NCBI GenBank assembly: GCA_900318865.1
Contig: ONMF01000007.1
Span: forward strand, 62,001-126,000
Direction: 5' to 3'
Origin: an uncultured Prevotellaceae bacterium
GTDB lineage: Bacteria > Bacteroidota > Bacteroidia > Bacteroidales > Muribaculaceae
Length of the DNA: 64,000 nucleotides
Positions 2,173 through 50,473 of the stretch are shown here, piece by piece (within the stretch, counting starts at the first letter, position 1; every line of letters begins with the position of its first letter). A model generated the notes under the pieces. That model searched no databases, was not told the origin of the DNA, and was given only the letters and a program-made list of their open reading frames with translations. The translations under genes and the position numbers were made by a program.

Positions 2173-3732
2173 ATGAAACGCATTTCGATTGCTTTTTTGA
2201 CCGCATGCCTGTGGACAGCGACCGCCACGGCACTGACGCGAGGCGACGTGAACGGTGATGGCGAGGCGAGCGTGGCCGACATCACCCAAGTGGTAAACAT
2301 CCTCGGCGGCGAGCGGCCCGGCGATGACATCATGGCCCGCGCCGACGTGAACGGCGACGGCGAAGTGAGCATTGCCGACGTGACACTGCTGGTGAGCATC
2401 ATCATGGACAACGACACCCCCGAGCCGCAGCCCCTCACAGGCTACGACTACGTTTGGGACCCCACTGTGCTGCCCGAAATTCATCTGCTTGTATCGCGCC
2501 AGGAGTGGAACCGGCTGCTGGCCATGTACGACGCCAATGCCTACACCCGCCAGTATGTCGCGGCAAGCCAGATGACCTTCGTTCACGACGGTGAGCGCAC
2601 CGTGGTCGACAGCATCGGGCTCAGGCTGAAGGGCAACACCTCGCGGCGCCGCCCCGAAGTCAACGGCCACAAACAGCATGTGCACTTCGGCCTGAACCTG
2701 CGCAAGTGGGTCAAAGATGCGGCTCACGAGGTGCAGGGAGTGCGAAAACTGCACTTGAAGTGGTTCAAAGACGACCCAATGTACGTGCGCGAAATGTATT
2801 GCTACAACCTCATGCGCGACTACGGCGTGTGGACCGCCCCGCGCGACCATTACTGCCGCTTGTGGCTGCAAGTGCAGGGCGACGCGAAAGAGACCTACTA
2901 CGGTGTGTACGAGATGATTGAGCACGTCGACGACCGCTACCTCAAGCAGCGCAAGGACAGCACCATGTTCGGTAGCGACAAGGGCAACCTGTGGAAGTGC
3001 AAATATGTGAACGGCATGGCCACGCTCACCAATCCCGACCGGGCCGACATGTGGTGGGACGACAACAGTGACGACCGCCACACCTACGAGCTGAAGACCG
3101 AGAACGCCAGCTTTGACGACGCGCGCGCACAGTTGGTCGACTTCATGCTCAAGCTCAACGGCAAGGGACGCGACAGCTTCTACAAGTGGATTCAGCAGGT
3201 GTGCGACGTGGACTTGCTGCTGAAAACCTACGCCGTGAATGTGGCCGTGGGCATGTGGGACGACTATTGGAACAACGGCAACAACTTCTACCTGTACTTC
3301 GACTCGACCGACCTCTACGACTATCATTTCTACCTCATCCCCTACGACTACGACAACACGCTGGGCACATCGCTGCAATGCGGCAACCAGAGCGATGCCG
3401 GGCGGCAAGACCCGCTGAACTGGGGGCGCGATGACATTCCGCTGATCAAGCGCATCCTGGAATTTGACGACTTCAGGGCAAAATATGTGACCTACCTCAA
3501 AGAACTCGTCAATCCCGCCAACGGCTTGCTGCACGTCGATGCAAGCCAGGCTCGCATCCGCGCCTGGCACGAACTGATTGCTCCCTATGTGGCCAACGAC
3601 ACCGGGCAGGACATGGAAATCAAGGACGAGCCCGCCCCGTGGGGCAACCACAGTGAATACCGCCTGCTCGACAACAACAACAATTTCTTCATCCGCAAGC
3701 GCGAGAGCATCAACCGGCTGAGCACCCCATAA
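2173..3732 (+). CDS. CotH-like kinase with N-terminal dockerin-like domain
   Basis: 519 residues. A signal peptide (about 1-21) is followed directly by two EF-hand-like dockerin repeats, with loops at 25-36 (DVNGDGEASVAD) and 58-69 (DVNGDGEVSIAD). The rest, from about residue 90, matches the CotH kinase family: LRLKGNTSRRR, YYGVYEMIEHVDDRYLKQR, and the acidic PYDYDNTLG motif that fits the metal-binding end of the active site. CotH proteins are atypical secreted kinases; in clostridia several carry dockerins and sit in cellulosomes. The start is set by the signal peptide and the promoter box just upstream; the longer frame from 2047 runs through repeat sequence. The substrate is unknown. A second dockerin-CotH gene lies at 57040-58488. 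Confidence 0.88.
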   Translation: MKRISIAFLTACLWTATATALTRGDVNGDGEASVADITQVVNILGGERPGDDIMARADVNGDGEVSIADVTLLVSIIMDNDTPEPQPLTGYDYVWDPTVLPEIHLLVSRQEWNRLLAMYDANAYTRQYVAASQMTFVHDGERTVVDSIGLRLKGNTSRRRPEVNGHKQHVHFGLNLRKWVKDAAHEVQGVRKLHLKWFKDDPMYVREMYCYNLMRDYGVWTAPRDHYCRLWLQVQGDAKETYYGVYEMIEHVDDRYLKQRKDSTMFGSDKGNLWKCKYVNGMATLTNPDRADMWWDDNSDDRHTYELKTENASFDDARAQLVDFMLKLNGKGRDSFYKWIQQVCDVDLLLKTYAVNVAVGMWDDYWNNGNNFYLYFDSTDLYDYHFYLIPYDYDNTLGTSLQCGNQSDAGRQDPLNWGRDDIPLIKRILEFDDFRAKYVTYLKELVNPANGLLHVDASQARIRAWHELIAPYVANDTGQDMEIKDEPAPWGNHSEYRLLDNNNNFFIRKRESINRLSTP

Positions 3733-9240: not shown

Positions 9241-11745
9241 ATGAGAAAAATCAACATCATGCTCGCAGCGGTCCTTCTCCCGCTGATGACGCTGGCCCAG
9301 GGATGGCCGGCAAACTATGGTGGAGTGCTGATGCAGGGCTTCATCTGGAACAACTACACTGCCACCACTTGGCAGGCTTTAGCCGACGATGTGGACAACC
9401 TGCAGCTCTTCGACCTGATTTGGGTTCCCAACTCGGGAAAAATCGACGCCAACGGCGTGGCCAAAAACATGGGCTACACCCCCGTCTACTGGCTCGACCA
9501 CAACAGCTGCTGGGGCAGCGAGGAACAACTTAGGGAGATGATTAAAACCTTCAAAGCCCACAACACTGGCATTTTGATGGACCTGGTCATCAACCACAAA
9601 AACGGCGCCAGCACTTGGACCGACTTCCCTCAGGAAAAAGTGGTGGGACAAAACACCAAGAAAACCTATCAGCTGGCTTGGAACAACACCACCTGTGCCC
9701 AGATTTGCCGCACCGATGAGGTGAACCGCGCATCGGCCACCGAATACAGTGGTCCCAAGGCCACCGGCGCAGCCGACACCGGCGACGACTTTGACGGCAG
9801 CCGCGACCTGGACCACACCAGCAGCGTGGTGCAAGCCAACGTGAAGACCTACATGGACTTCCTGCTCAACGACCTGGGATATGCCGGCTTCCGCATCGAC
9901 ATGACCAAGGGCTATAAAGCCGAGTACACCGGCAAGTACAACAGCCAGGCAGGCGTGAAATTCGCCGTGGGCGAGTACTGGGACGGCAATGCCAACAACC
10001 TGCGCACATGGCTCAACGCCACCAAGGTGAACGGTGCCATCCAGAGTGCCACCATGGACTACGCGCTGAAATATCGCATCAACGGCGCCTTCGGCAGCAA
10101 CAACTGGAGCGTGCTGAGCGACAAGGGCCTCTGCGCCGACGCCAGCTACCAGCGCTACGCCGTGACCTTCGTCGACAACCACGACACGGGCCAAAGCACC
10201 AACAACGATTGCCTGAAAGAGAACATCGCCGCTGCCAACGCTTTCATCCTGACCATGCCGGGCACACCATGCGTGTGGTTCAAGCATTACGCCGTCTACA
10301 AGGATGAAATCACCAACATGATCAAGGCGCGCCATGCCGCAGGTGTTCACAACCAGAGCAGCATCACCACCCAGAGCCAAAGCAACGGCGGCTACATCCT
10401 GGCCGTGAAAGGCACACGCGGAAGCCTCTATCTGCAACTGGGCGGCGCCACCAACAGCGCCACGCCCAGCGGCTACAAGCTCGTTCAAGCAGGCACCAAC
10501 TACAAGATGTTCATCACCAGCTCCATCGACTGGGAGCACGTGGGCAAGGCCGGCACCGTGCTGGGCTACCCCGTGGTGAGCAAGAAGAGCGGTAACTACA
10601 AGAGCAGCGTCACCGTGAACGTGAAGCCCAGCAAGAGCGGAACCACACTGGTCTACACCACCGATGGCTCCACCCCCATGAGCGACGGCACACGCATCAC
10701 CGCCAGCACCGACCTCACTTTCACCAAGAGTACCGCACTGCGCGTGGGCGTGCTGAACAACGGCGTGGTAGAGAACGTGGAACGCTACTTCTACAACGTG
10801 ACCCCCACCACACCCAGCGGCATCAACATCTACATCCGCACCTCGGCACCCGACAAGGCTCGCATTTGGGCTTGGAACCCCTCTAACAACAGCCAGAACT
10901 ACACCGGCGGCACGTGGCCCGGCAAGGCGGTCAAATCGCTGCCCACAACCGAAATCAACGGCAAGACGTGGTATTATCTGAAAGTAAACGCCTCGGCCGT
11001 GAGCTTCCTGATGAACAACGGCACCGGCGGCTACGCTGCACAGACGGCCGACTGCAACAACGTCACGCACGACATGTACATCGAGTATCCCAGCCCGATG
11101 TATGTGAACGCTTCGGACAACGGCTTCGACGTGTTTGAGGACCTGACCGAGCAAGTGGCCACCGGCAGCGAGGAGACACCGACCTACGACGACGTCTACA
11201 TCCTGGGCAACGCCGTCGACGTGTCCTGGGCTCCCAACAAAGGCCTGAAGATGACCACCGAGGACGGCGACAACTACACTGCCAACGTCGACCTCAAGCC
11301 CGCCGCCACCCAGTCGGGCAAGACCTACTCCTGGTTCAGCTTCACCAAGAAGCTGGCTTCGAATGCCAGCAACTGGAGCGAAATCGACGACTACCGCCTG
11401 GGAGCCACCAAGAACGACTATCCCATCACTGCTTCCCTGCTGGGCAAGAACATTGCTTGTGGCCAGTGGGGTGCCAGCGGAGGCAACGCCTTCATGATTG
11501 AGACCGGAAAATACACCATCAAGCTCAACGCCTTCACCCGCACGCTCGTCGTCACCAAGTGGGACGGCAGCGATGACAGCAAGGTGGGCGACGTGAATGG
11601 CGACGGCGAAGTCAGCATCGCCGACCTGACCATGCTCGCCAGCCTTGTGGCAGCCCACAGCGAGAATGAGCGCAGCGACGTGAATGACGACGGCGAGACA
11701 GGCATTGCCGACGTCACCACGCTGGTGAGCCTGCTGATGCAATAA
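9241..11745 (+). CDS. secreted GH13 alpha-amylase with starch-binding modules and C-terminal dockerin
   Basis: 834 residues. I chose the ATG at 9241 because the signal peptide (1-19, ending TLA) begins there and the promoter box lies just upstream. The catalytic GH13 domain spans about 22-430, with the nucleophile Asp220 (GFRIDM), acid/base Glu245 (VGEYW) and stabilising Asp315 (VDNHD). Next come a chitobiase-like beta domain (about 436-521, YTTDGSTP), a CBM26-like starch-binding module (529-624, IWAWN...WPG), a SusE/F-like module (649-775) and a two-repeat dockerin-like domain (782-834). It should cut alpha-1,4-glucan outside the cell. It heads the series of dockerin genes up to 23369 and is a paralogue of the amylase at 19887. 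Confidence 0.94.
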   Translation: MRKINIMLAAVLLPLMTLAQGWPANYGGVLMQGFIWNNYTATTWQALADDVDNLQLFDLIWVPNSGKIDANGVAKNMGYTPVYWLDHNSCWGSEEQLREMIKTFKAHNTGILMDLVINHKNGASTWTDFPQEKVVGQNTKKTYQLAWNNTTCAQICRTDEVNRASATEYSGPKATGAADTGDDFDGSRDLDHTSSVVQANVKTYMDFLLNDLGYAGFRIDMTKGYKAEYTGKYNSQAGVKFAVGEYWDGNANNLRTWLNATKVNGAIQSATMDYALKYRINGAFGSNNWSVLSDKGLCADASYQRYAVTFVDNHDTGQSTNNDCLKENIAAANAFILTMPGTPCVWFKHYAVYKDEITNMIKARHAAGVHNQSSITTQSQSNGGYILAVKGTRGSLYLQLGGATNSATPSGYKLVQAGTNYKMFITSSIDWEHVGKAGTVLGYPVVSKKSGNYKSSVTVNVKPSKSGTTLVYTTDGSTPMSDGTRITASTDLTFTKSTALRVGVLNNGVVENVERYFYNVTPTTPSGINIYIRTSAPDKARIWAWNPSNNSQNYTGGTWPGKAVKSLPTTEINGKTWYYLKVNASAVSFLMNNGTGGYAAQTADCNNVTHDMYIEYPSPMYVNASDNGFDVFEDLTEQVATGSEETPTYDDVYILGNAVDVSWAPNKGLKMTTEDGDNYTANVDLKPAATQSGKTYSWFSFTKKLASNASNWSEIDDYRLGATKNDYPITASLLGKNIACGQWGASGGNAFMIETGKYTIKLNAFTRTLVVTKWDGSDDSKVGDVNGDGEVSIADLTMLASLVAAHSENERSDVNDDGETGIADVTTLVSLLMQ

Positions 11746-11757
11746 CCCGTCAACATC

Positions 11758-11803
11758 AATGAATCCTATGGGCACAGAACCATTCTCGCCCATAGGATTC
11801 ATT
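11758..11803 (+). terminator. long intergenic hairpin after the first amylase gene
   Basis: A perfect 16-base stem (11758-11773 against 11788-11803) has a 14-base loop and is followed by only a weak T-run. It lies between two dockerin genes on the same strand and may be a terminator, a processing site or an attenuator that sets the downstream level. Confidence 0.5.
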
Positions 11804-11853
11804 TACTTCATCGGTTTTGTCAACACGACTAACAACAAATAATATATATCAAC

Positions 11854-14800
11854 ATGAAAAAAATTACTCTACTTCTGAGTTTGCTGCTGATTTCCTTCAT
11901 GGGATTTCAAGCAAACGCTGAATTATGGCTCATCGGCCAGCTGTCGCCTGACGGCTGGGTGACCAACAAGGGTGTGCAATTCACCGACGAGGGAGAGGGC
12001 AACTATTCGCTCGACCTTGCAGTGAATGCCACCGGACAGCAATACTTCAGCCTGACAACACAGCTGAGCACTGCTGCCGACGACTGGGACGGTATCCGTT
12101 CATCGCGCTTCGGCGGCCGCTTTGAGGTGGCTCTTGACACCGAGGTTATACTCGACTCTGCCACCGACGACAGCCCGTACATCAATTTTGGTCAAACGGG
12201 TACCTACACCTTCAACTTCAACATCAACACCAAGGTGCTGAAAGTTTCTTTGAAAGAAGAAATCGTGGTGCCCCCGTTCACCGGCACCATCTATGTGACC
12301 AAGAACTCGGTGGGCAACATATACGCCTGGGATGCCGACGGCAACTACGGCGAATGGCCCGGAACACCCGTCAGCTCGCTTGAGACGGCCACGCTCGACG
12401 GCGTGGACTACTACACGTTTACCTACGCCCACGCCTCGACCGGTCCCGGCCTCATTTTTAACGAGGGGATGGACCTGCCGCAGACCGACGACATGGTGCC
12501 GCAAGACGGCGCCATTTACGAGTACCTGGGTGGCACCACCGCCAGCATTGTTGACCCCGTCAAGCCCGTCGTTCCCACCGACTTGTTCCTCGTGGGCTCG
12601 TTCAACGAGTGGGATCCCATCACCGCCGAGCAGATGACGCTCGCCGAGGACGGCAAGTACACCATCGAGAAAGCCTTCGAGAATGGTGCCGAGCTGAAGT
12701 TCATCACCATGCAGGCCGATTGGGAGGCCGAGGGACAGACAGTCTACGGAGCCGTGAGCGAGGGCAACTTCGTCTTCGACGCCCAGTATCTGGGGCAAGA
12801 GCTCGACATCACATCGCCGGGACAGAACTTCCAGCTGCCCGCCGGCAACTACACCATCACCGTCGACCTCACAGCCGGCAAAGTGGTGTTCAGCGGCGAA
12901 ATCATCGACCAACCCGTGGTTGAGAGCACACTGTTCCTGGTGGGCTCGTTCAACGAGTGGGACACCGCCACCGCCGAGCAGATGACGCTCGCCGACGACG
13001 GCAAATTCACCATCGAGAAAGCCTTTGAGAATGGCGCAGAGCTGAAGTTCATCACCATGCAGGCCGATTGGGAGGCCGAGGGACAGACCGCCTACGGAGC
13101 CGTGAGTGAGGGCAACTTCGTCTTCGACGCCCAGTATCTTGGACAAGAGCTCGACATCACATCGCCGGGACAGAACTTCCAGCTGCCCGCAGGCAGCTAC
13201 ACCATCACCGTCGACCTCACAGCCGGCAAAGTGGTGTTCAGCGGCGAAATCATCAAGCCGGTGGTCGAGACCGGCATGTTCATGGTGGGCAAATTCAACA
13301 ACTGGGATGCCGCCAACCCGCTGGCTCTTGAGCAGCAAGAAGACGGCACCTTTGTAGCCAACATCACCTTTGATACCGACTTGTGGAATGACTTCAAATT
13401 TGTGACCGACAACAGTGGCTGGGAGACAACGACCGTGCTGGGTGCCGACAACGAGGGCTCGGATTATTACACGGTGGAACCCGAATTGTTCGACTGGCCT
13501 CTCAATCTGGTGTCGCCGGGTGCCAATTTCCGTGTGCCCGCCGGTATCTACACCATTACCGTGGCTCCCGCGCTGCGCGAGGAAGAAGAAGGCTACACCG
13601 TCACCATCAGCGGACAAACCATCACGCCCGAGACACACATCTATGTGCTGGGTGAAATTGATGGCAAGACCAGTGCCGACTGGACTCCTTACGAAGGCCT
13701 GGAGATGACCACCGACGACTATCTCCACTTCAGCGCCGACATCACCACCACCAACGACAAGAACTACTTCAATTTCACCAAGAAACTGGCTACCGACTAC
13801 GATGTGGAGGATGGCGGATGGAGCCAGATTGCCGGCTATCGCTTCGGCGCTGTGGCCGACGGTACTGAATTCGTGGTCATGCCCGACCAGATGGGAATGC
13901 CGCTGTCGCTCGGCGAGGATTGCGACGAGCCCATCTCGTTCATGCTGCCGGCCGGACAATGGAATCTGCAGATTGACCTCGAGTCCCGCACGCTCACCAT
14001 CACCGGCGACTATGTGATGCCCGAGACCCACGTCTATATTCTGGGCGAAATCGACGGCAAGACCAGTGCCGACTGGACCCCCTACGAGGGACTGGAGATG
14101 ACTACCGAGGATTACATCCATTTCGAAGCTAACATCGCCACCACCAACGAAATCAACTACTTCAACTTCACCAAGGTGCTGGCCACCGACTACGATGTGG
14201 AAGACGGCGGATGGGGACAGCTGGCAGGCAACCGCTTCGGCGCAGTGACCGAGGGTGGCTTTGCCGACCCGTTTGTGGTCACCGCCGAGCAAATGGGCTT
14301 GCCCCTGTCGCTCAGCCAGGATTGCGATGAGCCCACCTCGTTTGCCCTGCCTGCCGGCGACTGGCATCTGTCGCTCGACCTGATGGCACGCACACTCACC
14401 ATCACCGGCGACTTCCCCGTGCCCGAGACCCATGTTTACATCCTGGGCGAGGTGAACGACAACGGTGGCTGGTTCCCCAATGTGGGCACCGAGATGGCTA
14501 CCGACGATTACATCACCTTCACAGCCAACATCACCACCGCCGGTGAGAATTGGAACGAGGAACTGATGCAAGGCTACAGCTACTTCTCCTTCTCCAAGGC
14601 TCTGGCCGTGAACGATGCCGACAACGGCGGCTGGGAGGAGATAGGACTGATGCGCTTCGGAGCCGTGGTCGACGATGAAATGGCCACCAGCATGCTGGTG
14701 ACCGACGACATGCTGGGCTACACACTGCCCGTCACCAACGACGGTGAGGGCACGGCTGCCTTCATGCTGCCCGCCGGCGAATGGAAACTCACGCTGAACC

Positions 14801-15012
14801 TGGCCGACCGCACGCTCATCATCGACAAGGCCGGCCTGCTGGGCGACGTGAACGGCGACGGCGAGGTGTCGATTGCCGACATCACCATGCTCGTGGACCT
14901 GGTGTCGAACCTCAACAGCAACGAGCGCAGCGACGTGAACGGCGACGGCGAGACCTCCATTGCCGACGTCACCATGCTCGTGGACCTGGTGATGGGCAAC
15001 TCCGGCCTTTGA
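11854..15012 (+). CDS. non-catalytic array of starch-binding-like modules with C-terminal dockerin
   Basis: 1052 residues, signal peptide 1-22, no enzymatic domain found. Modules in order: a SusE/F-like module (23-135); a CBM26-like module (about 143-228, IYAWDADGNY...WPG); two nearly identical modules (244-349 and 360-465, each LFLVGSFNEWD with conserved aromatic residues); a related diverged copy (475-585, MFMVGKFNNWD); three longer modules (about 593-720, 724-856, 858-985, each starting ETHxYxLGE); and a dockerin-like pair (997-1050). The family pattern (lyxxGxxNxW) is that of starch-binding SusE/SusF modules and CBM48/CBM20-like folds. It probably holds starch at the cell surface or in a complex. 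It shares its strand and spacing with the neighbouring dockerin genes. Confidence 0.88.
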   Translation: MKKITLLLSLLLISFMGFQANAELWLIGQLSPDGWVTNKGVQFTDEGEGNYSLDLAVNATGQQYFSLTTQLSTAADDWDGIRSSRFGGRFEVALDTEVILDSATDDSPYINFGQTGTYTFNFNINTKVLKVSLKEEIVVPPFTGTIYVTKNSVGNIYAWDADGNYGEWPGTPVSSLETATLDGVDYYTFTYAHASTGPGLIFNEGMDLPQTDDMVPQDGAIYEYLGGTTASIVDPVKPVVPTDLFLVGSFNEWDPITAEQMTLAEDGKYTIEKAFENGAELKFITMQADWEAEGQTVYGAVSEGNFVFDAQYLGQELDITSPGQNFQLPAGNYTITVDLTAGKVVFSGEIIDQPVVESTLFLVGSFNEWDTATAEQMTLADDGKFTIEKAFENGAELKFITMQADWEAEGQTAYGAVSEGNFVFDAQYLGQELDITSPGQNFQLPAGSYTITVDLTAGKVVFSGEIIKPVVETGMFMVGKFNNWDAANPLALEQQEDGTFVANITFDTDLWNDFKFVTDNSGWETTTVLGADNEGSDYYTVEPELFDWPLNLVSPGANFRVPAGIYTITVAPALREEEEGYTVTISGQTITPETHIYVLGEIDGKTSADWTPYEGLEMTTDDYLHFSADITTTNDKNYFNFTKKLATDYDVEDGGWSQIAGYRFGAVADGTEFVVMPDQMGMPLSLGEDCDEPISFMLPAGQWNLQIDLESRTLTITGDYVMPETHVYILGEIDGKTSADWTPYEGLEMTTEDYIHFEANIATTNEINYFNFTKVLATDYDVEDGGWGQLAGNRFGAVTEGGFADPFVVTAEQMGLPLSLSQDCDEPTSFALPAGDWHLSLDLMARTLTITGDFPVPETHVYILGEVNDNGGWFPNVGTEMATDDYITFTANITTAGENWNEELMQGYSYFSFSKALAVNDADNGGWEEIGLMRFGAVVDDEMATSMLVTDDMLGYTLPVTNDGEGTAAFMLPAGEWKLTLNLADRTLIIDKAGLLGDVNGDGEVSIADITMLVDLVSNLNSNERSDVNGDGETSIADVTMLVDLVMGNSGL

Positions 15013-15030
15013 TCACACCATCGAATCAAC

Positions 15031-15070
15031 GCCTAATCCCGTGAGCGGGTCATCCCTCACGGGATTAGGC
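15031..15070 (+). terminator. long intergenic hairpin
   Basis: A perfect 15-base stem (GCCTAATCCCGTGAG and its complement, 15031-15045 and 15056-15070) has a 10-base loop but no following T-run. It separates two dockerin genes in the same way as the hairpins at 11758 and 18293. Confidence 0.5.
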
Positions 15071-15128
15071 ATTGGTTATTAACCTTCGATTATCATTCTA
15101 TAACATTAACTACAATTTATCAGCCAAA

Positions 15129-18100
15129 ATGAAACGAATCTCTTTCATCATCAGCCTATTACTGATTGCATTCCTCGGAATGAAGGCGGTGGCAGCCGAT
15201 GCTCTGTACCTCGCGGGCGAGCACAACAGTTGGGCCACCGATGACGAGCATTACGCCTTTACGCTCGACAACGCCAAAGGGGTGTTCTTCCTTGACATCA
15301 CCTTCGCATCCGCCACCCAAGCCAAACTCACCGTGGGACAAGGATGGGACAAGTGCTACGGAGGGACTTACGCCGCACAAAAACTAATGTCACTGAGCGA
15401 TAACGCCAACAACATCACCTTCCCGGCCGGCAGCTGGCGCATCCTGGTGAAGCAGGACTGCTCGCAGATGCTCGTTGTGCCGCAAGGCCAGCTTTATGTG
15501 GTGGGCGAATATCCCGGCACATCTTGGGACTTCTCGACCGCTGTCAAGGGCACATTTGCCGACGGCAAGGTCACGTGGGACATGGGCGACAACGCTCCTG
15601 CCCGCGATTTTTCCGTCAAATTCATCTATGTGAACGACGGTGATAACCCCGGATGGTCCGACTTGAACAACATTGGCGGCGGTGACCTGGCGGTCAACGG
15701 CAGCATCACCGGCGCGCACGGTAGCGGTAGCAACATCATCCCCAAGAACGGCACCAAGACGCTGACCTACGAATGGGCCGCCAACAAGGTGTCGTCGACC
15801 GGCGAAGCACCCGCCCCCGAGCCCACCACCCTCTATGTGGTGGGGACGAACAGCTCTTGGATACCTGAGGATTCACCGACCATGACAATCGAAGAGAACG
15901 GAACCTACACCTACAACTTCGGGCACATCGACAGCGAGGTGGAGTTCAAAATTCTCACCAAGAAGGCTTGGGAAGAGCCTTATTATGGGGCCGAGGACTC
16001 CAATCCTCTCACCGTGGGCGACGAGCGCACCATGATTAACGGGGGCAGTGGCATGAATTTCAAGATTTCCCGGCCCGGCACCTACGCTATCCAAGTCGAT
16101 TTGGAAAACCTGAAACTCAAACTCACCGGCACACCCGACCCGGTGACCAACGAGTACAACATCGTGGTGAACGAAGCGGAGCACGGAACGGTAACGGCCG
16201 ATAAAGCGAAAGCGCAAAAGGACGAGACGGTGAAACTCACCATCACCCCCGAAGCCGGCTACCAACTTGAAACCCTTCAAGTGAAGGCAGGCGAGCAAAA
16301 CGTGGAAATTGCCGGCGACAACACCTTTAAGATGCCGGCAAGCGATGTCACCGTGAGCGCCACTTTCAAGGCGGCACCCCTCTATGTGCTGGGCAACATC
16401 CCGTCGCTGGGCGAGTGGAATCCTGAAGCGGCAAAGGTCATGCTTGAAGATTCACATGGCGTGTGGCATTACTCTCTGGGACATGTGAACGCCGACACTC
16501 AGTTCAAGTTCATCATCGGCAACTCAAGCACCGTGTGGGACGACAAACTTTTCTATGGTCCTGAAAACGGAACGACACTTGAAGTGGACCAACCCGCCGC
16601 AATGACAAAAGGCGGCAGCGGGGACTTCATCATCGCCAGGTCGGGATCGTATAACCTGACTGTCAACAATTCGCTTAACGAGGTCACCCTCTCGGGAACG
16701 GCCGACAGGGCCAATCTGTCCATCAAGACGAGTGCCGACGAATGGTCGGCGAGCGAAGGGCTGATTATGGCCGACGACAACACTCAGTCCATCACCAAGG
16801 CAATGACCGAGGGAACCCAGTTTAAATTCATCGACCAGAACGGCGTGTGGTACGGTGCCGAGGCCGATGGTGTCATCACCAAAGACGCTGTGACACAAGC
16901 CACGGCACTCAAGCTGGTGGCCGGCGACGAGGGCAAGAACTTTGTGATGCCTGTGGGCGCCGAGTGGAAATTCACTGTCGACGCCGATGTGAAGACCATC
17001 ACCATCACCGGCCAGTGGCCCGAGGAACCCGAGCCCACTCCCGAGCTCTATGTGCTGGGCAATGTGGAAGGCTCGTCGTGGAATTTGACGGGCGAGCATC
17101 TCAAGCTCACCTACGACACCGAGAAGAAAATCTTCACCGGCCACATCAACATCAGTACCACAACGCAGGGCTACTTCGTCTTTGCCACCAAGATTATGAA
17201 CGACTGGGAGGCAATCAATCCTTACCGCGTTGGCGGCTCGGAAGCAGGCGAAACCGGTAATTGTGACATCACCGCCGAGAACCAGGCCAACATTCCCTTG
17301 GCTTTTGGATCCAGTGATTTCAGTTTCATTCCTTTCGCGTTCTGCATCGCGGCCAACGAGGGCGGATACGACATTGAGGTGGATCTGGAGCACATGACCA
17401 TGAAGGTGATTGGCGACATTCCTTCCCAGCAGCCCACCAATTGCGTGAAGCTGGCACGATGGGGCTATGATGAAGACTATCAGGAACTGGACTTCACCCT
17501 CGATGAAGAGACAGGCAAATATGTCTTGGCCAATCAGGAGTTCACCTTCATGCACCAGGGCTTCAAGGTTATCATCAACCAGGAAGGAAACACTACCTGG
17601 CTGGGTGGCGAAGGAGAGTATATGGCAGGAGAACTTGAAATCACAGCCGACAAGCTGGGACAAACGCTACAGCTCGAGAATCCCGGACAAGACATCATGA
17701 TTCCTGCCGGAACCTACACCTTCACCTTCGACTTCGAAGCCCTCACCCTGGTGGTGACCGGCGAAATGAACATGCCACGGCTCTATCTGGTGGGCAACTG
17801 TGAACAGCTGGCCGACTGGGACGCCACCGCGGCTCCCGAGATGACTCGCGACGGTTACATCTACTCCTACCGGATAACCACCGAGGAGTCGCTGGAATTC
17901 AAGGTTCTGCTGCAGCAGAACTGGGACGGCGGCGACTTCGGCTACGGCGGCACCTATGGCACCGCCATCACTCTGGGGCAAGCGTACGACCTGTCCAAGC
18001 CGGGCGCCAACTTCATCATTGAAGAGCCGGGAACTTACGTTATCACCGTGAACGGACTCACCCACAGGCTCACCGTCAGCAAGCCTTATCTCAAGGGCGA

Positions 18101-18263
18101 TGTGAACGGCGACGGAGAGGTGGGCATTGCCGACATGACGGCTCTGGCGAATCTCCTGCTCGACGAAACGAGCAACGAGCGCAGCGATGTGAACGAGGAC
18201 GGCGAAACCTCCATTGCCGACATCACCACGCTGGTGAACATCCTGCTCGAACAAGAAAACTAA
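15129..18263 (+). CDS. non-catalytic array of binding modules with C-terminal dockerin
   Basis: 1044 residues; the ATG at 15129 starts a clear signal peptide (1-21), and the upstream ATG at 15072 does not. At least seven beta-sandwich modules follow, several starting with a LYVxGxxxxW pattern: about 23-117, 120-224, 233-334, 416-521, 528-630, 638-764, 773-879 and 882-986. One InlB-B-type repeat (about 340-416, NEAEHGTVTADKAKAQKDE) interrupts the series. A dockerin-like pair ends the protein (988-1042; the first loop reads DVNGDGEVGIAD). No catalytic residues are recognised. It resembles the proteins at 11854 and 18357 and probably binds alpha-glucan or related polysaccharide. Binding specificity is inferred from context. 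Confidence 0.86.
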   Translation: MKRISFIISLLLIAFLGMKAVAADALYLAGEHNSWATDDEHYAFTLDNAKGVFFLDITFASATQAKLTVGQGWDKCYGGTYAAQKLMSLSDNANNITFPAGSWRILVKQDCSQMLVVPQGQLYVVGEYPGTSWDFSTAVKGTFADGKVTWDMGDNAPARDFSVKFIYVNDGDNPGWSDLNNIGGGDLAVNGSITGAHGSGSNIIPKNGTKTLTYEWAANKVSSTGEAPAPEPTTLYVVGTNSSWIPEDSPTMTIEENGTYTYNFGHIDSEVEFKILTKKAWEEPYYGAEDSNPLTVGDERTMINGGSGMNFKISRPGTYAIQVDLENLKLKLTGTPDPVTNEYNIVVNEAEHGTVTADKAKAQKDETVKLTITPEAGYQLETLQVKAGEQNVEIAGDNTFKMPASDVTVSATFKAAPLYVLGNIPSLGEWNPEAAKVMLEDSHGVWHYSLGHVNADTQFKFIIGNSSTVWDDKLFYGPENGTTLEVDQPAAMTKGGSGDFIIARSGSYNLTVNNSLNEVTLSGTADRANLSIKTSADEWSASEGLIMADDNTQSITKAMTEGTQFKFIDQNGVWYGAEADGVITKDAVTQATALKLVAGDEGKNFVMPVGAEWKFTVDADVKTITITGQWPEEPEPTPELYVLGNVEGSSWNLTGEHLKLTYDTEKKIFTGHINISTTTQGYFVFATKIMNDWEAINPYRVGGSEAGETGNCDITAENQANIPLAFGSSDFSFIPFAFCIAANEGGYDIEVDLEHMTMKVIGDIPSQQPTNCVKLARWGYDEDYQELDFTLDEETGKYVLANQEFTFMHQGFKVIINQEGNTTWLGGEGEYMAGELEITADKLGQTLQLENPGQDIMIPAGTYTFTFDFEALTLVVTGEMNMPRLYLVGNCEQLADWDATAAPEMTRDGYIYSYRITTEESLEFKVLLQQNWDGGDFGYGGTYGTAITLGQAYDLSKPGANFIIEEPGTYVITVNGLTHRLTVSKPYLKGDVNGDGEVGIADMTALANLLLDETSNERSDVNEDGETSIADITTLVNILLEQEN

Positions 18264-18292
18264 ATCAACGAGAGATAAAAAACGGCACTTCG

Positions 18293-18316
18293 GGCGGCCC
18301 CGCTATCGGGGCCGCC
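18293..18316 (+). terminator. GC-rich intergenic hairpin
   Basis: A 10-base GC stem (GGCGGCCCCG / CGGGGCCGCC) with a 4-base loop, not followed by a T-run. It is very stable and lies 41 bases before the next ATG, so it may act as a processing or stability element rather than a full terminator. Confidence 0.45.
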
Positions 18317-18356
18317 GGGAGGCCAAAATTGACAACATCAAAAACACTTAACATTT

Positions 18357-19712
18357 ATGAAGAAATTATTTACCTTGATGTGCATTGCCTTCCTGGCAAT
18401 GAGCGCCAGCGCCGCCGACGTGTGGATTGTGGGCAACAACCCCTTCGGCAACTGGAACCCTGCCTCGGGCACACAAATGACTGAAACCGCCGAAGGCTCC
18501 AATGTGTTCACAGCCGACTTCACCATCACGGCTCGCACATGGTTCATCTTCACCACGCAGCTGGGCACCTGGAGCGATGTGAACAGCCACCGCTACGGCC
18601 CGCTGAGCGCCAATGAGCAAGTGGCGGCCGGCAACGAGTACACCACGCAAATCTCGACCAACGACCAGGCCAGCTACTTTATCGATGCCGGCGACTATAC
18701 CCTCACGCTCGACATGAACACCCTCAAGTTCACAGTGGCCGGACAGGGCGAGGTAGTAGACCCCATGACGGGTGAGTGCTACATCCTGGGCCAGATGAAC
18801 GGCAACGACTGGGGCTCGAACATCGGTGTGAAGATGGAACCGACCGAAACCGAGGGTGTGTTCACCGCTTCGGTGACCACCACCAACCAAGAGGACTTTT
18901 CCTTCTTCTCCTTCACCACCAAGCTCAGCGAGAACGAAGATGAGTGGGGCGCCATCGCTCCCTACCGCATGGGTGCCGTGAGCAGCGACTTCCTGGTGAG
19001 CGAGAACTCACTGGGCGCCAACCTGCCGATGCTCGACTTCGGCTCGGACAACGCCTTCAAGATTGCTCCGGGACAATACACCATCACCGTCGACTTAATC
19101 AACCACACCATGAAGGCCGAGGGCTCGATGGTGGTCATCGACCCCAACACCGGTGAGTGCTACATCCTGGGCGAGGTCAACGGCAACGGCTGGGCGGCCA
19201 ACCTGGGCGTGGCCATGCAGCCTGCCGACGAGGAGAACGTGTTCACCGCCACCATCACCACTGCCGGTGAGAACGAAGGTTACAGCTACTTCAACTTCAC
19301 CACCAAGCTGGCCGAAACCGAGGACGCTTGGGGCAGCATCGATGCCTACCGTTTCGGTGCCGTGACCGACGGAGGAGCCGAAGACCCATTCCTCGTCACC
19401 GACGAAATGCTCAACCAGGACTTGTCGCTGAGCGACTTCGGAGCCAACCCCACCTCGTTCAAGATTGAGCAGGGCCAATGGCAGCTCACTGTGAATCTCA
19501 ACGACCGCAAGATTGTCATCGCCCGCGTTGGCGGCGACGAAATCATCGGCGACGTGAACGGCGACGGCGAGGTGTCGATTGCCGATGTCACCATGCTGGT
19601 GAGCCTGGTGGTAGACCAGTCGAGCAACGAGCGCAGCGATGTCAACCAGGACGGTGAGACGGGCATTGCCGACGTCACCACGCTGGTGGGCATGCTCATG
19701 GAGCAGAACTGA
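18357..19712 (+). CDS. three-module SusE/F-like protein with C-terminal dockerin
   Basis: 451 residues. A signal peptide (1-19) precedes three related modules (about 20-130, 140-255 and 262-385). Each starts with a DVWIVGNN or GECYILG pattern followed by a GW or NW pair and a FxFTTKL motif. The same module type occurs once in each amylase (9241 and 19887). A dockerin-like pair lies at about 397-451. The dockerin coding DNA is almost identical to that of the next gene. No catalytic domain. Likely role: binding starch or its fragments for the enzymes coded on both sides. It is followed by a good terminator. Confidence 0.87.
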   Translation: MKKLFTLMCIAFLAMSASAADVWIVGNNPFGNWNPASGTQMTETAEGSNVFTADFTITARTWFIFTTQLGTWSDVNSHRYGPLSANEQVAAGNEYTTQISTNDQASYFIDAGDYTLTLDMNTLKFTVAGQGEVVDPMTGECYILGQMNGNDWGSNIGVKMEPTETEGVFTASVTTTNQEDFSFFSFTTKLSENEDEWGAIAPYRMGAVSSDFLVSENSLGANLPMLDFGSDNAFKIAPGQYTITVDLINHTMKAEGSMVVIDPNTGECYILGEVNGNGWAANLGVAMQPADEENVFTATITTAGENEGYSYFNFTTKLAETEDAWGSIDAYRFGAVTDGGAEDPFLVTDEMLNQDLSLSDFGANPTSFKIEQGQWQLTVNLNDRKIVIARVGGDEIIGDVNGDGEVSIADVTMLVSLVVDQSSNERSDVNQDGETGIADVTTLVGMLMEQN

Positions 19713-19754
19713 GACATCCTTTTCTAAAGGGCACCCCGTGAGGTGCCATCCCTT

Positions 19755-19794
19755 AACCGCCGGAGCGCAACCACTGCGCTCACGGCGGTTTTTT
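19755..19794 (+). terminator. rho-independent terminator
   Basis: Nested stems AACCGCCG/CGGCGGTT and GAGCGC/GCGCTC, followed by TTTTTT. This is the first clear terminator in the series that begins at 9241. Confidence 0.75.
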
Positions 19795-19839
19795 AATATA
19801 AAAAATCGTGAAAGGCCGGGCATATCATGATTTTTTTTC

Positions 19840-19847
19840 TATCTTTG
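19840..19847 (+). promoter_or_regulatory. -7 box for the second amylase/galactanase operon
   Basis: TATCTTTG, 39 bases upstream of the ATG at 19887 and just after the terminator at 19755-19794. No clear -33 TTTG; the upstream stretch is T-rich. Confidence 0.5.
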
Positions 19848-19886
19848 TAGGTTAATTGGCACATAATACACAAAAAACTATACAAC

Positions 19887-21995
19887 ATGAAAAAAGCACT
19901 TCTCTCTTTAGCCACAGCCGTGCTGCCGCTGCTCATGCTGGCACAAGGCTGGCCGGCCAACTATGGCGGCGTGATGCTGCAAGGATTTTATTGGGATTCG
20001 TTCCGCGACACACGCTGGACCAATCTTGAAAGTCAAGCCGACGAACTGTCGCAGTTCTTCAACCTCATCTGGGTGCCGCAAAGCGGCAATTGCAACGGCG
20101 CCACCATGGGCTACGACGACCTCTACTGGTTCGACCACAACAGCGCATTCGGCAGCGAGGCCCAACTGCGCTCCATGATCAAGACGTTCAAAAACAAGGG
20201 CGTGGGCATCATCGAGGACGTGGTCATCAACCACCGCAAGGAACTGAGCAACTGGGTGGTGTTCCCGGCCGAGACCTACAAAGGCGTCACCTACCAGCTG
20301 CTCTCGACCGATGTCACCGCCAACGACGACGGCGGCACCACCAAGACCTGGGCCACCCAGAACGGTTACACACTGAGTAAAAACAACGACACCGGCGAGG
20401 ACTGGGGCGGCATGCGCGACCTGGACCACAAGAGCGCAAACGTGCAGAAAAATGTCAAGGCCTACCTCAAGTTCCTGGTCGACGACCTGGGCTACACCGG
20501 CTTCCGCTACGACATGGTGCGCGGTTACTGGGGCAGCTACACCGGAGCCTACAACCAGCACGCAGGCGTGCAATTCTCGGTGGGCGAGAACTGGAGCGAC
20601 TCCAAGACCATCATGAACTGGATTGACAGCACCAAGGTGAACGGCACACCCATGAGCGCGGCATTCGACTTCCAATTCCGCTACACCGTGCGCAACGCCA
20701 TCAACACCAAGGACTGGAGCGCGCTGGGCAAGAACAACGGCGGCAACAACAACTGGCCTCTCGTGGTCAACAACAGCAACACCGGCAACGGAGCCTACAA
20801 GCGCTATGCCGTGACATTCGTCGAGAACCACGACACCGAGTACCGCAGCTCCACCGCACAGCAAGACCCCATCAAGGCCGACACCCTGGCTGCCAACGCC
20901 TACATGCTGGCCATGCCGGGCACACCGTGCATCTTCCTCACCCACTGGCTGGGCTGCAAGGAGGAAATCAAGCCCATGATTGACGCCCGCAAGCAGGTGG
21001 GTATCCACAACATGAGCGCCTCGCAGACCTACCGCACCAACAAGGACTATTACTCCATCATCACCACCGGCGAGAACAACAAAAAACTGCTGGCCGTCGT
21101 GGGCAAGGTGGCCAGTGTGCCGGTCAGCACGTCGCAGTGGGTGCAGGTGCTCGACGGCTACCACTACCGCTACTACATGTCGCCCAACAACGAGACCGCC
21201 TGGGCCGACCGCAGCAGCTGCTACTTCCAGAACCCCTTCCAGGTGACTCTCACCGCCGTGAGCGCCAGCAGCGGCGCACAGTTGGTCTACACCACCAACG
21301 GCTCCGCCCCCACCGCCAGCAGTACCAAGGTGGCCAGCGGCTCAAAAATCACCATCAGCCAGACTACCACGCTCAAGGTGGGACTGCTCGTGGGAAGCAC
21401 GGTGAGCGGCGTCATCACCCGCACCTACACCTACAAGGAGCCTGAAGTAACGCAGGACGACATGTATGTGCTGGGCAACATCAACGCCACGGGCTGGGCA
21501 CCGAACAACGGCAAGAAGATGGACACCGAGGACTTCGAAACCTATACCACCACCATCACCTTTGCCGACGGCTATCAGGGCTCGTCGTGGTTCAGCTTCA
21601 GCAAGGAGCTGGGCAACACGGCCAACGACTGGGGCGTCATCAACGCCGTGCGACTGGCCGCCACCAGCAACGACTATCCTATCAACGAGACCAACTTCGG
21701 CAAGCAGATTCAGTGCAGCGAGTGGGGCAAGGACGTGAACAACGCCTTCATGATTGCCAACGGCACCTATAAAATCACCTTGCTCAAGACCCCGCGCAAA
21801 ATCATCGTCGAGAAAGCCGCCCCGCAATTCATCATCGGCGATGTGAACGGCGACGGCGAGGTGTCCATTGCCGACGTCACCATGCTTGTGAGCCTGGTGG
21901 TGGACCAGTCGAGCAACGAGCGCAGCGATGTCAACCAAGACGGTGAGACGGGTATTGCCGATGTCACCACGCTGGTGAACATGCTGATGCAATAA
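19887..21995 (+). CDS. secreted GH13 alpha-amylase with C-terminal dockerin
   Basis: 702 residues. Signal peptide 1-19. The GH13 catalytic domain (about 22-430) contains Asp209 (GFRYDM), Glu234 (VGENW) and Asp316 (VENHD) as the catalytic triad. A chitobiase-like beta domain (448-518, YTTNGSAP), a SusE/F-like module (525-645) and a dockerin-like pair (650-702) follow. The first 20 residues of the mature protein match the amylase at 9241 closely (GWPANYGGV), so the two are paralogues; this one lacks the CBM26-like module. The GH53 gene follows after 36 bases, so the two are probably cotranscribed. It acts outside the cell on alpha-glucan. Confidence 0.94.
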   Translation: MKKALLSLATAVLPLLMLAQGWPANYGGVMLQGFYWDSFRDTRWTNLESQADELSQFFNLIWVPQSGNCNGATMGYDDLYWFDHNSAFGSEAQLRSMIKTFKNKGVGIIEDVVINHRKELSNWVVFPAETYKGVTYQLLSTDVTANDDGGTTKTWATQNGYTLSKNNDTGEDWGGMRDLDHKSANVQKNVKAYLKFLVDDLGYTGFRYDMVRGYWGSYTGAYNQHAGVQFSVGENWSDSKTIMNWIDSTKVNGTPMSAAFDFQFRYTVRNAINTKDWSALGKNNGGNNNWPLVVNNSNTGNGAYKRYAVTFVENHDTEYRSSTAQQDPIKADTLAANAYMLAMPGTPCIFLTHWLGCKEEIKPMIDARKQVGIHNMSASQTYRTNKDYYSIITTGENNKKLLAVVGKVASVPVSTSQWVQVLDGYHYRYYMSPNNETAWADRSSCYFQNPFQVTLTAVSASSGAQLVYTTNGSAPTASSTKVASGSKITISQTTTLKVGLLVGSTVSGVITRTYTYKEPEVTQDDMYVLGNINATGWAPNNGKKMDTEDFETYTTTITFADGYQGSSWFSFSKELGNTANDWGVINAVRLAATSNDYPINETNFGKQIQCSEWGKDVNNAFMIANGTYKITLLKTPRKIIVEKAAPQFIIGDVNGDGEVSIADVTMLVSLVVDQSSNERSDVNQDGETGIADVTTLVNMLMQ

Positions 21996-22031
21996 TTTTT
22001 TAGCCATCACAAGAAAATCTTTCGTTTAGAG

Positions 22032-23369
22032 ATGAAGAAAATCTTTCTACTGCTGGCCGCCCTCACTGTGGCGCTCAGCTCACAAGCCGCCCTCAAGGGC
22101 GATGTGAACGGCGACGGCGAGGTGAGTATCGCCGATGTCACCATGCTCGTCGACTTGGTGCTCAACGACAACTCCAGCGACAACAGCGATGTCAATGCCG
22201 ACGGCGAGACGGGCATTGCCGATGTCACCGCCCTGGTGGGCATCATCCTCAGCCAGGGCGAAGAGGAAATTGCCGGACGCGTGGTGGGAGGCGACATTTC
22301 ATTGCTGCCCACCTACGAGGAACACCAGGCAGCGCAGTTGCGGGCCTGGAGCAGCTCGCCCACAGGCTACTACACCATGACGGGACAGCGCATCGACGAC
22401 GTTATCACCTACGTCAAAGAGCAAGGCTGGACGGCAGCACGCGTGCGACTGTTTGTCAATCCGGCCAACGCATCGGCCGAGGACGTGGGACAGGGCGTGC
22501 GCCAGAGTCTGGAATACATCACACCGCTGTGCGCGCGCATCAAGGCCGCCGGACTGCGACTCATGCTCGACTTCCACTACAGCGACTCCTGGGCCGACCC
22601 CGTGAAGCAGTACACCCCGGCCGAGTGGGTGGGGCTGAACGACTACCAGCTCACCAACAAAATCTACGAGTACACCAAGGCCTGCCTCGAGACGCTGGTG
22701 GCCGCCGGCGGCGCCCCCGACTACATCCAGACCGGCAACGAGATTTCCTACGGCATGCTGTGGGGCAAGCGCGGCGGCACCCTGTTCAAGTGCCAGATGG
22801 GCGACGATGCCAACTGGCCTCGCTTCATCAGCCTGCTCAAGAGCGCCGGCAAGGCTTGCCGCGAGGTGTGCCCCAAGGCCAAAATCATCCTGCACAACGA
22901 GCGTGTGGCCAAGCCCGAGATGCTCTATAACTTCTACACCAAGCTCTCCGGCGTGGACTACGACATCATCGGACTGAGCTACTACCCCTACTATCACGGC
23001 CTGCTCACCAACCTCGACAACGTGCTCACGCGCCTCGAAACGGTGTATCTGGGCAAGCGCATCATGATTGTAGAGACCGGCTATGCCCACCAGTACGCCA
23101 TCAGCGGCGACTATTCCACGCAGGCTCAGGCCGTGTGGCCCGTGACCCAGGCCGGACAGAAACAGTTCGTCACCGACCTGATTGCCATGCTGCACAAGCA
23201 CGAAGCGGTCGACGGCATCTTCTGGTGGTTCCCCGAGGCCAACGAATATGGCCTCGACTGGACCAATTTCCGCGTCAACGACGCCTGGTACAACGGCAAC
23301 CTATGGAGCCACGAGACGGGGCGCGCCACGCAAGCGCTCTACGAGCTGAAGAACTTCTTGAACGACTAA
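22032..23369 (+). CDS. GH53 endo-beta-1,4-galactanase with N-terminal dockerin
   Basis: 445 residues. Signal peptide 1-19, then a dockerin-like pair (about 23-75) placed before the catalytic domain, the reverse of the order in the amylases. The GH53 domain (about 85-440) shows DFHYSDSWADPVKQ, the acid/base Glu237 (TGNEIS) and the nucleophile Glu348 (IVETGY), with the WWFPEANEYG region near the end. It should cut beta-1,4-galactan of type I arabinogalactan or pectin side chains. Its place beside amylases suggests that the cluster serves mixed plant polysaccharide rather than pure starch. A strong terminator follows. Confidence 0.93.
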   Translation: MKKIFLLLAALTVALSSQAALKGDVNGDGEVSIADVTMLVDLVLNDNSSDNSDVNADGETGIADVTALVGIILSQGEEEIAGRVVGGDISLLPTYEEHQAAQLRAWSSSPTGYYTMTGQRIDDVITYVKEQGWTAARVRLFVNPANASAEDVGQGVRQSLEYITPLCARIKAAGLRLMLDFHYSDSWADPVKQYTPAEWVGLNDYQLTNKIYEYTKACLETLVAAGGAPDYIQTGNEISYGMLWGKRGGTLFKCQMGDDANWPRFISLLKSAGKACREVCPKAKIILHNERVAKPEMLYNFYTKLSGVDYDIIGLSYYPYYHGLLTNLDNVLTRLETVYLGKRIMIVETGYAHQYAISGDYSTQAQAVWPVTQAGQKQFVTDLIAMLHKHEAVDGIFWWFPEANEYGLDWTNFRVNDAWYNGNLWSHETGRATQALYELKNFLND

Positions 23370-27112: not shown

Positions 27113-30100
27113 ATGAAAAAGTTTTTCTTATTACTCATGATGTCCGTCCTTTCGCTCGGCGTGGGATGGGCAGCTACAGGTACGATTACCTTTGGTAACA
27201 ATGGTGTCAAAATTGACAACACATCTGTTACCGATGATGATGACCGGGGCAACACCTGGACAATTACCACCACAGGAACAACTTCTTTTACACAACAACC
27301 AAGCTATTCCCAAGTTGGTTCCAGCAAAGCTGCCGCCACCAGCATCACTTTCACCACCACTTTACCCAGCAACGTGGCCATCACGGCCATGAGCGCAAAG
27401 TTTGGTGGTTTTTCCGGCACAGCTGGAACCATTTCCCTGAAAGTGGGTGATACTGAAGTGGGAACTGGCTCTTTGAACGCCAGCAACGATGTGACAGTAA
27501 ATGCCACCTCGACGGCAACCGGAAAAGTTCTTACCGTGACTGTTACAGACATCGCCAAAGGCGTGAAGTGCTACAACATCAGCTACACCTACAACGATGC
27601 CGACCCCACGCAGCCCTCGGTAGCTCCGACTGCCACGGTAAGTTTCTCGCCGGCTTCGGGTAGCACCGTCTTGATTGGCGGCAATGTGACCATTTCCCTC
27701 GATGGCGAGGCCAGCGGCATCAAGTACACACTCAACGGCACTGACCCTGTGCAGGGCAGTGCCACCTACAGCGCACCCTTCGCACTCACCGGCGACGACG
27801 GTGACCAAGTGACCATCAAAGCTGTTGCTTACAACACCAATGGCACCGACTATGCCGCTGGCACCGTTGCCACAGCCACTTATACGCTGAAAGCACCCGC
27901 CACCACACCTTATTCCCGTGTGACGAGCATCAGCAGTGCCGACCTGGGCCGCAAGTTCATCCTCGTGTATGAGGGCAGCTCAAAGGCTATGGGTGCAGTT
28001 AACACTTATGGAAACAGCGAGGATGTCACCATCAACGACCGCACCATCAACTTGCCCGAAGGCTCTGCCGTGGTGCCCGTGACTCTGGGCGGCGAGGACG
28101 ATGCCTGGACGTTCGACACCGGCAGCGGCCTGCTGGCATGGTCCAATAAAACTGACAATCACAACAACCTTTATGCCGACGAAACCGGCTCGACCTGGAA
28201 GGTGACCTTCGACGGCAACAATGCCGAGATTAGGCCCACCAACGACACAGCTGGTACACGTGTTATCCAATATAACACCGGCAGCCCGCGCTTTGCCTGC
28301 TACACAGGCAGCCAGAAAGCCATCCAGCTCTACCGCGAGGTGGTGGCCGACGAGCTGGCCGCGCCTGAAATTTCGGGCAACGCCAACTTCGTGGGCAGCA
28401 CCGAGGTGACCATCACGGCCGCCGAAGGCGCATCGATTTACTACACGACCGACGGCACAGAGCCGACGACCGCCAGCACGCTCTACAGCGCCGCGTTCAC
28501 CATCAACGCCACAACCACCGTCAAGGCCATCGCCGTGCTCGACGGCAAGACCTCGGGCGTGGCCTCCAAGACCTTCACCGCCATCGCATCGGTGGCCAGC
28601 ATCGCCGAATTCAACGAGCTCGCCGACAATGAAGTGCGCGCATTCAGCAATCCCGTTGTCGCCCTCAAGCAATGGGGTAACAACAACCAGAACCTCTATG
28701 TACAAGAGCGCGACGGCAGCAAAGGCATGCTCATCTATGGTGCTACCGGCCAAACCTACAACTTGGGCGACGTGATTCCCGCTGGATTCAGTGGCACAAG
28801 AACCGTTTATAGCGGCGCTCCCGAGCTGGTTTCCCCCACCGGTTTCCAAGCATCGACCGAAAACGCGCAACCGACTCCCGTCGAACTCACCCCTGAACAA
28901 GTGAACCTTGAAAACTTTGGCCGCTACGCCATCATTAAGGGTGCCACCTTCGACACCGAGAACACCAAGATTGTTGTAGCCAACGAGAGTGTCACTTACT
29001 TCAACACTTGGAGCATCGACATCCCCACCGAAGGAACTTACGACGTTATCGGTATCGTGAGCTATCATAACGCACCGCAATTCCTGCCGCTGAGCTGCAA
29101 CGAGGTTCAGGCCGAGGCCGTGCCCGACTATTATCTGGTGGGCAGCTTCAACATGGAGGGCGACAACTGGATTACCGACGATGAGAACTACAAGTTCACC
29201 AAGCAGGCCGCAGGCGGCTACAAGCTGGCCGACGTCACCCTGCCCGACAACGTTGAGTTCAAGATTGTCAAGAAGGAGGACGGCAACATCACCGCATGGC
29301 TGGGCGGCGCATCCAATGAAGAAACTTACGGCATCCACGGCGGATGGCACGCCGACATGCCGCTCAACGGTGAAAACACCGCCAAGAACTTCTCGATGGC
29401 CGCAGGCGGCGTGTGCACATTGACCATAAGCGACGACATGAAGCTCACCGTCGACAAGCAACCCAGCATGGCAATCAGCGCCTCGTTCAACAACTGGGGC
29501 AAGACGGCCATGACCGCCAGCGATGAAGGCTGGACAGCCGAAATCGAACTTACCGAGGCCGGCGAATTCGGCTTCAAGGACGAGTGGAACAACTGGAAGG
29601 GCGGCAACGGCACCGCCATTACCGACGACAACCTGGGCACCGAGCTGACCCTTGCCAACAACGGCAACTTCAACATTCCCGCCGGCAAGTGGACGCTCAA
29701 CGTGAACGCCGAGCGCACCACGCTGGTAGTGGACCGTGTGTACGCAGAGCATGCCATCACCATTGCCAGCGACATCGTCAATGGCACCGTAGCCACCGAT
29801 GTGACGGCTGCCAAGAAGGGCACCGTTGTGACCATCACCGCCACACCCGCCCAGGGCTACACGCTCGAAGCCATCACCGTCACCGGTGAGGACAACACGG
29901 CCATTGAAGTCACCGAAGGCAAATTCACCATGCCCGACCAGCCAGTGACCGTGAGTGCCACGTTCAAGACCTTCGAGTACGCTCAACAGTTCAAGAAAGT
30001 GACCAGACTCGACCAGCTCGTGGCCGGCAAGCAAGTGCTCATCGTGGGCACGGCAAACGATGCCGTCTATGTAATGGGCGCTCAAACGAGCAACAACCGC

Positions 30101-50312: not shown

Positions 50313-50350
50313 TGTGTCAATAGTTAAGGTGATACTTTTTCGATTTTTTG

Positions 50351-50358
50351 CAAAAGTA
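50351..50358 (-). promoter_or_regulatory. -7 box for the 1299-residue secreted protein
   Basis: Read on the minus strand, TACTTTTG 38 bases upstream of the ATG at 50312. No obvious -33 element. Confidence 0.45.
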
Positions 50359-50473
50359 CACCTTTTAGCCATCACCCGAAATAGAGCAACAGAAAAATCA
50401 AAACCCAGAAATCGTTTAAATATCTAATAATCAAACGAAACAATCGAGCCTGACCCCTGAAAAATCTAAACTT

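Follow-up and report, generated by a model that had tools for sequence, protein, structure and literature searches.

The dockerin domains encoded by nine genes in a 64,000-nucleotide stretch of contig ONMF01000007.1 (hereafter the window), from an uncultured Prevotellaceae bacterium of the rumen, probably act as tags that attach proteins to a cohesin-dockerin surface system, one anchored via the type IX secretion system (T9SS). The candidate partners are two proteins encoded on contig C30 of the same assembly, at C30:22644-24662 and C30:24731-26776, each of which combines a signal peptide, leucine-rich repeats, a dockerin, a cohesin, and a T9SS-like tail. A first-pass annotation of the window, which described these dockerins as a possible amylosome-like system, had suspected that their partner lies elsewhere, as this pair of cohesin-bearing proteins now indicates.

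The assembly comprises 2.51 Mb in 30 contigs and is 97% complete. It holds 60 matches to the Pfam model Dockerin_1 (PF00404) in 59 reading frames, one of which carries two dockerins; outside the window, the sequence read consisted of the stretches around dockerin and cohesin matches. All nine dockerins annotated in the window were recovered above the curated PF00404 cut-off (E from 1.4e-5 to 4.9e-10 in the genome-wide scan), including the six that lie in consecutive genes at 9241-23369. The domain stands within about 20 residues of the C terminus in 52 of the 59 frames, at the N terminus in four, and internally, followed by a tail, in three. The glycosidase modules found on these proteins belong to glycoside hydrolase (GH) families GH13 (three), GH16, and GH53, together with a GH128-like core and GH10-like modules (three), so that type I dockerins occur on secreted enzymes as they do in cellulosomes. 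Other dockerin-linked modules are M6 peptidases (five), C10 peptidases (two), CotH (four), many BspA leucine-rich repeats, a phosphodiester glycosidase, and an endonuclease. Two unusual cases belong to this census: a single protein on C27 (L134:6273-8828) has two dockerins and an extra EF-hand-like loop, and the dockerins that close two leucine-rich-repeat frames on C16 (L125:5880-7904 and L125:7944-9962) are truncated in their second half, perhaps through decay or a frameshift.

The paired 12-residue calcium loops described by the first-pass annotation are borne out by the 57 dockerins of the genome that stand on proteins other than the cohesin proteins. None of them departs from the ligand residues at positions 1, 3, and 12 of either loop, and position 5 is conserved in 55 to 57, so that both loops have the calcium-ligand residues of cellulosome-type dockerins. 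The spacing of 20-25 residues did not hold: loop starts are mostly 29 residues apart, which leaves 17 residues between loops, slightly less than described. Loop positions 10-11 read I/V-A in almost all 57 dockerins, which on these residues are predicted to form a single recognition class; other members of the genus differ at positions 9-12, with for example N-I-S-D or T-S-A-D. For 73 of 82 dockerins the nearest other dockerin belongs to their own genome, compared with a mean of 39 after shuffling, in a sample dominated by the present genome. A shared species-specific partner would yield such a similarity, and gene conversion could do so too. An AlphaFold model of a window dockerin, made from nine window rows, is of moderate quality (predicted local distance difference test 77, predicted template modelling score 0.43), and the top Foldseek matches of this model are dockerins of cohesin complexes, none of them significant (best E 0.32).

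The Pfam Cohesin model (PF00963) has no match anywhere in this genome, and among relatives from the genus its matches, found in 33 genomes, are mostly weak. A profile named A1 was built from cohesin domains of these relatives and of one genome from another family, and was then refined to 34 members. Searching the genome with this lineage-specific profile finds exactly two cohesin domains, both on C30, and the explanation that the partner is absent was rejected on this ground. As both domains are members of A1, their E-values follow by construction; no third domain of the genome passes the profile, and a weak third match (E 0.004) lies in a neighbouring gene, L130:5243-6631. The identification as cohesins rests instead on three other observations. 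Compared with solved structures, A1 matches at E<0.01 chains of scaffoldins, cohesins, and NagJ (a known cohesin-like domain), together with two chains of 141-143 residues labelled endoglucanase, the best match being at 2.5e-5. Taken singly, 20 of the 34 A1 members match Pfam Cohesin at E up to 0.01, and a homologous receptor from another genome of the genus (L006) passes the Pfam Cohesin cut-off with 2.7e-10. A cohesin is therefore encoded in the same genome as the dockerins, as in cellulosome-type systems. Neither Pfam nor A1 detects a multi-cohesin scaffoldin in this genome, while multi-cohesin proteins do occur in relatives from the genus. No relative of the cohesins turned up in searches of viral contigs and plasmids.

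The tail of the two receptors is called T9SS-like because its score with the T9SS sorting model TIGR04183 lies below the cut-off. The same form of tail is common to their homologues, nine TIGR04183 tails are found elsewhere in the genome, and the T9SS machinery is represented by SprA (2745 bits). The dockerin-cohesin-tail segment of the receptor is matched in 101 of 101 genomes of the genus, in 95 of them at E<1e-20, while the six weaker matches may reflect the dockerin alone; the matching proteins often stand as tandem pairs of 650-710 residues. About 80 distinct cohesin proteins were collected from relatives, with a T9SS-like tail detected at the end of 33. By domain order they are of four kinds: cohesin-dockerin, dockerin-cohesin-tail, cohesin-dockerin-cohesin-tail, and arrays in which two to six cohesins precede a terminal dockerin. 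A further kind of protein, found at L092:6849-10940 and as similar frames in L093, L095, L099, L100, and L104, has 1335-1461 residues, an internal dockerin, and a T9SS-like tail; no cohesin was detected in these proteins, though they adjoin multi-cohesin proteins in five genomes of the genus.

Cohesins and dockerins also occur together at a wider scale. In the genus sample, dockerins are present in 73 of 73 genomes and A1 cohesins in 72 of 73, a high figure that is expected because A1 was built from this lineage. The order-wide sample is more independent evidence: among 393 Bacteroidales genomes, dockerins (at least one match) occur in 44 of the 46 that are positive for A1 and in 95 of the 347 that are negative (Fisher p 4e-20, from counts tallied by hand and with a test that ignores shared ancestry). 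In G119, a genome outside the A1 seed, 29 A1 cohesins stand alongside at least 49 dockerins.

A second line of evidence comes from what stands at the end of the amylases. Homologues of the window GH13 protein at 19887-21995 were taken from 80 named loci, most of them in metagenome-assembled genomes from ruminants that were deposited under the names Prevotellaceae, Muribaculaceae, or Bacteroidales. The 90 complete homologues end in a dockerin in 40 cases and in a T9SS-like tail in 48; two have neither and none has both. A quick tree of these proteins requires eight label changes in all, and its well-supported branches make at least three of the dockerin label unavoidable; in several loci dockerin-bearing and tail-bearing GH13 paralogues adjoin each other. 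The first tail detector, made from 15 tails chosen by eye, overlooked many GH13 homologues with short tails; half of the overlooked tails then served to train a second model, which recovered 17 of 17 held-out ones. The tail of the GH13 protein that ends at window position 1168 was itself among the seeds of the tail alignment. A comparable substitution is suggested for lipid anchors. Among 53 dockerin proteins that begin with a signal-peptide-like segment, a single one has a lipobox-like motif, while the SusD, SusE, and SusF proteins encoded beside the window all have a lipobox.

Dockerins, cohesin homology, domain orders, distribution, and the alternation of tag and tail are all observed in the sequence. 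In the mechanism proposed from them, the T9SS-like tails of the receptor pair on C30 would direct its export and anchor it to the cell surface. Its cohesins would tether the proteins that carry a dockerin, namely amylases, starch-binding proteins, galactanase, peptidases, CotH proteins, and leucine-rich-repeat proteins. The dockerin would then replace a protein's own surface attachment, namely the T9SS-like tail on amylases and the lipid anchor on SusE/SusF-like proteins. Calcium-dependent binding between dockerin and cohesin and the surface display of the receptors are predicted from domain content, and the crossing of the outer membrane by dockerin proteins with neither tail nor lipobox is likewise presumed. 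A tentative and rather unlikely addition is that the dockerin might also serve as an export ticket, with the proteins binding a receptor cohesin in the periplasm and crossing via the T9SS as folded passengers on the tail-bearing receptor.

Several observations weigh against this proposal. The dockerin proteins have no visible signal for export across the outer membrane. The receptor tails reach only 12.8-12.9 bits with TIGR04183, for which the NCBIfam cut-off is 23; their E-values are 0.08-0.09 over 18950 models, or about 4e-6 if taken as a single planned test. The internal dockerins of the receptors have no explanation in the scheme, and two cohesins are few to serve about 57 dockerins. With the assembly 97% complete and in 30 contigs, a scaffoldin could be missing from it. 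Finally, A1 finds no cohesin in seven Bacteroidales genomes that are rich in dockerins, with 12 or more matches each; these are G166, G167, G179, G188, G191, G370, and G434, which belong to other families.

The absence of another export signal, the position of the dockerin at the extreme C terminus in most of the 59 frames, and its alternation with the T9SS-like tail on homologous amylases would all fit a dockerin that serves directly as a signal for secretion or sorting, in which case it would be a T9SS-type tail of a new kind that the export machinery, instead of a cohesin, recognises. This reading is considered improbable. An N-terminal dockerin with no tail is found in four frames of this genome and in 27 across the loci read, and N-terminal sorting domains are not known for the T9SS; in the receptors the dockerin is internal, and cohesins and dockerins co-occur across the order. 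The dockerins could alternatively be calcium-stabilised structural caps with no role in assembly, each receptor cohesin binding only its own adjacent dockerin. Consistent with such caps, the internal dockerins of the tail-bearing cohesin proteins in other members of the genus form a class of their own, with T/N-V/I-T-D loops unlike those of enzyme dockerins in the same genomes. The enzyme dockerins, however, stand on many unrelated proteins with the genome-specific sequence described above (73 of 82 against a shuffled mean of 39), and relatives have multi-cohesin proteins that end in a dockerin of the enzyme class, which makes a capping role quite improbable.

An amylosome proper, such as that of Ruminococcus bromii, would be a complex devoted to starch and assembled on a multi-cohesin scaffoldin, and is suggested by the six adjoining starch and galactan genes that are all dockerin-tagged. 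It is nevertheless highly improbable here, given that no multi-cohesin protein was found in the genome and that starch is clearly the target in only six of the 59 dockerin frames, five of them in the window and one a GH13 protein with a CBM26 module elsewhere. Among the remaining frames are peptidases, CotH proteins, leucine-rich-repeat proteins, and other glycosidases, and for this reason the dockerin system is regarded as general and not as an amylosome. The amylosome-like label of the first-pass annotation is thus kept in its dockerin part and dropped in its starch scope, since GH16, GH10-like, GH128-like, and GH53 modules, peptidases, CotH, BspA repeats, and an endonuclease bear the same domain. 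The annotation also stated that SusC and SusD are missing from the window, which holds, though a full Sus locus ends at its left edge. This locus has the order LacI-SusC-SusD-SusE-SusF-GH13, with the LacI-type regulator gene beside the genes at C13:50958-63168. SusC, SusD, and the lipoproteins SusE and SusF lie at C13:50958-58571 with the amylase gene adjoining, the composition of a Sus system, and the GH13 protein has a T9SS-like tail. Its last gene, which begins left of the window (C13:58939 on), reaches into it as a GH13 C-terminal end at 29-1168, with the T9SS-like tail and without a dockerin.

The nine dockerin genes of the window and the GH13 end at 29-1168 lie on the forward strand. Pfam bears out the two GH13 enzymes and the GH53 enzyme of the six-gene cluster. 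The first GH13 alpha-amylase (9241-11745; PF00128 2.9e-14) has C-terminal binding-like modules and a C-terminal dockerin at 11587-11724 (PF00404 2.2e-6), and the second (19887-21995; PF00128 8.8e-15) has a C-terminal dockerin at 21837-21986 (6.1e-7). The GH53 endo-galactanase (22032-23369; PF07745 5e-69) is the only one of the six whose dockerin (22095-22235; 4e-5) stands directly behind the signal peptide instead of at the C terminus. Of the three non-catalytic binding arrays annotated between the amylases, two match SusE/SusF models. One is a SusE/SusF-like and CBM20-like array (15129-18263; PF16411 2.7e-22, PF00686 1.6e-10) with a C-terminal dockerin at 18093-18248 (2.1e-8), and the other is a SusF-like starch-binding array (18357-19712; PF17142 1.3e-8) with a C-terminal dockerin at 19548-19688 (8e-7). 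The third is a repeat array (11854-15012) with a weak, sub-threshold glycogen-binding match and a C-terminal dockerin at 14839-14979 (3.3e-6). By phmmer, each of these arrays shares homology with the two amylase proteins: the third array resembles the binding modules of both (6.6e-37 to a window GH13), and the SusF-like array matches the two GH13 proteins at 3e-49 and 7e-52. All six cluster proteins start with a signal-peptide-like segment that has no lipobox.

The other three dockerin genes of the window encode a CotH-family protein (2173-3732; PF08757 2e-37) with the dockerin right behind the signal peptide at 2242-2394 (3.8e-9), a BspA-type leucine-rich-repeat protein (42916-46311; PF13306 2.2e-214) with a C-terminal dockerin at 46150-46299 (5.4e-7), and a second CotH-family protein (57040-58488; PF08757 9.9e-33) with an N-terminal dockerin, likewise right behind the signal peptide, at 57127-57288 (3.2e-8). 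T9SS-like tails are also present on the secreted proteins at 27113-31036, 31239-33758, and 46413-50375; the genome scan with TIGR04183 finds only the last, the first two having variant tails that end like TTTKVVR. A surface polysaccharide locus may lie at 58511-63982, to judge from the glycosyltransferase, radical-SAM-like, and flippase-like genes there.

The proposed system resembles the cellulosomes of Ruminococcus flavefaciens and clostridia in the range of proteins that carry dockerins (glycosidases, CotH, leucine-rich-repeat, and peptidase proteins) and in its cohesin proteins, which in relatives may have several cohesins and a terminal dockerin and whose profile matches scaffoldin cohesins of solved structures. 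It differs in that the host is Gram-negative and that this genome has two cohesins, one per receptor. Cellulosome systems use sortase or surface-layer anchors, whereas the present receptors have T9SS-like tails. With the amylosome of R. bromii it shares dockerin-tagged GH13 amylases, but it is not starch-specific, has no scaffoldin that was found, and coexists with a Sus locus. The SusE/SusF-like modules of the dockerin cluster, like the adjoining locus, recall the SusC/D/E/F system, except that the window proteins have a dockerin in place of the lipobox.

PMC9763041 gives an account of amylosomes, citing Ze et al. 2015, and leaves open an alternative attachment mechanism for dockerin-only genomes. 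Dockerins on GH13, GH53, and other genes have been reported in rumen Bacteroidetes metagenomes (PMC6071333, PMC7480376, PMC9763041), for instance 11 per bin in camel rumen bins 49 and 58, with no Pfam cohesin (PMC6071333), and their role has been termed not yet defined (PMC7480376); unlike those studies, the lineage-specific profile supplies candidate receptors. T9SS-linked glycosidases are also known from the rumen bacterium Candidatus Paraporphyromonas polyenzymogenes, for which no cohesins or dockerins are reported and whose genome is described as without cellulosomal components, in line with other Bacteroidetes (PMC5831590). Among titles and abstracts on dockerins together with T9SS or type IX secretion, a coverage that mostly leaves out subscription journals, no T9SS-tailed cohesin receptor appears. 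Dockerins in rumen Bacteroidetes are accordingly already known, and what seems to be new are the candidate cohesin receptors with a T9SS-like tail.

Almost all genomes of a rumen genus encode such a receptor pair, which combines a cohesin with a T9SS-like tail and is a concrete candidate partner for these dockerins that binding assays could test. If the proposal is true, a cellulosome-like surface system would operate alongside the Sus-type uptake of glycans for which this Gram-negative group is known, and the route by which its dockerin-tagged proteins are exported would become a testable question.

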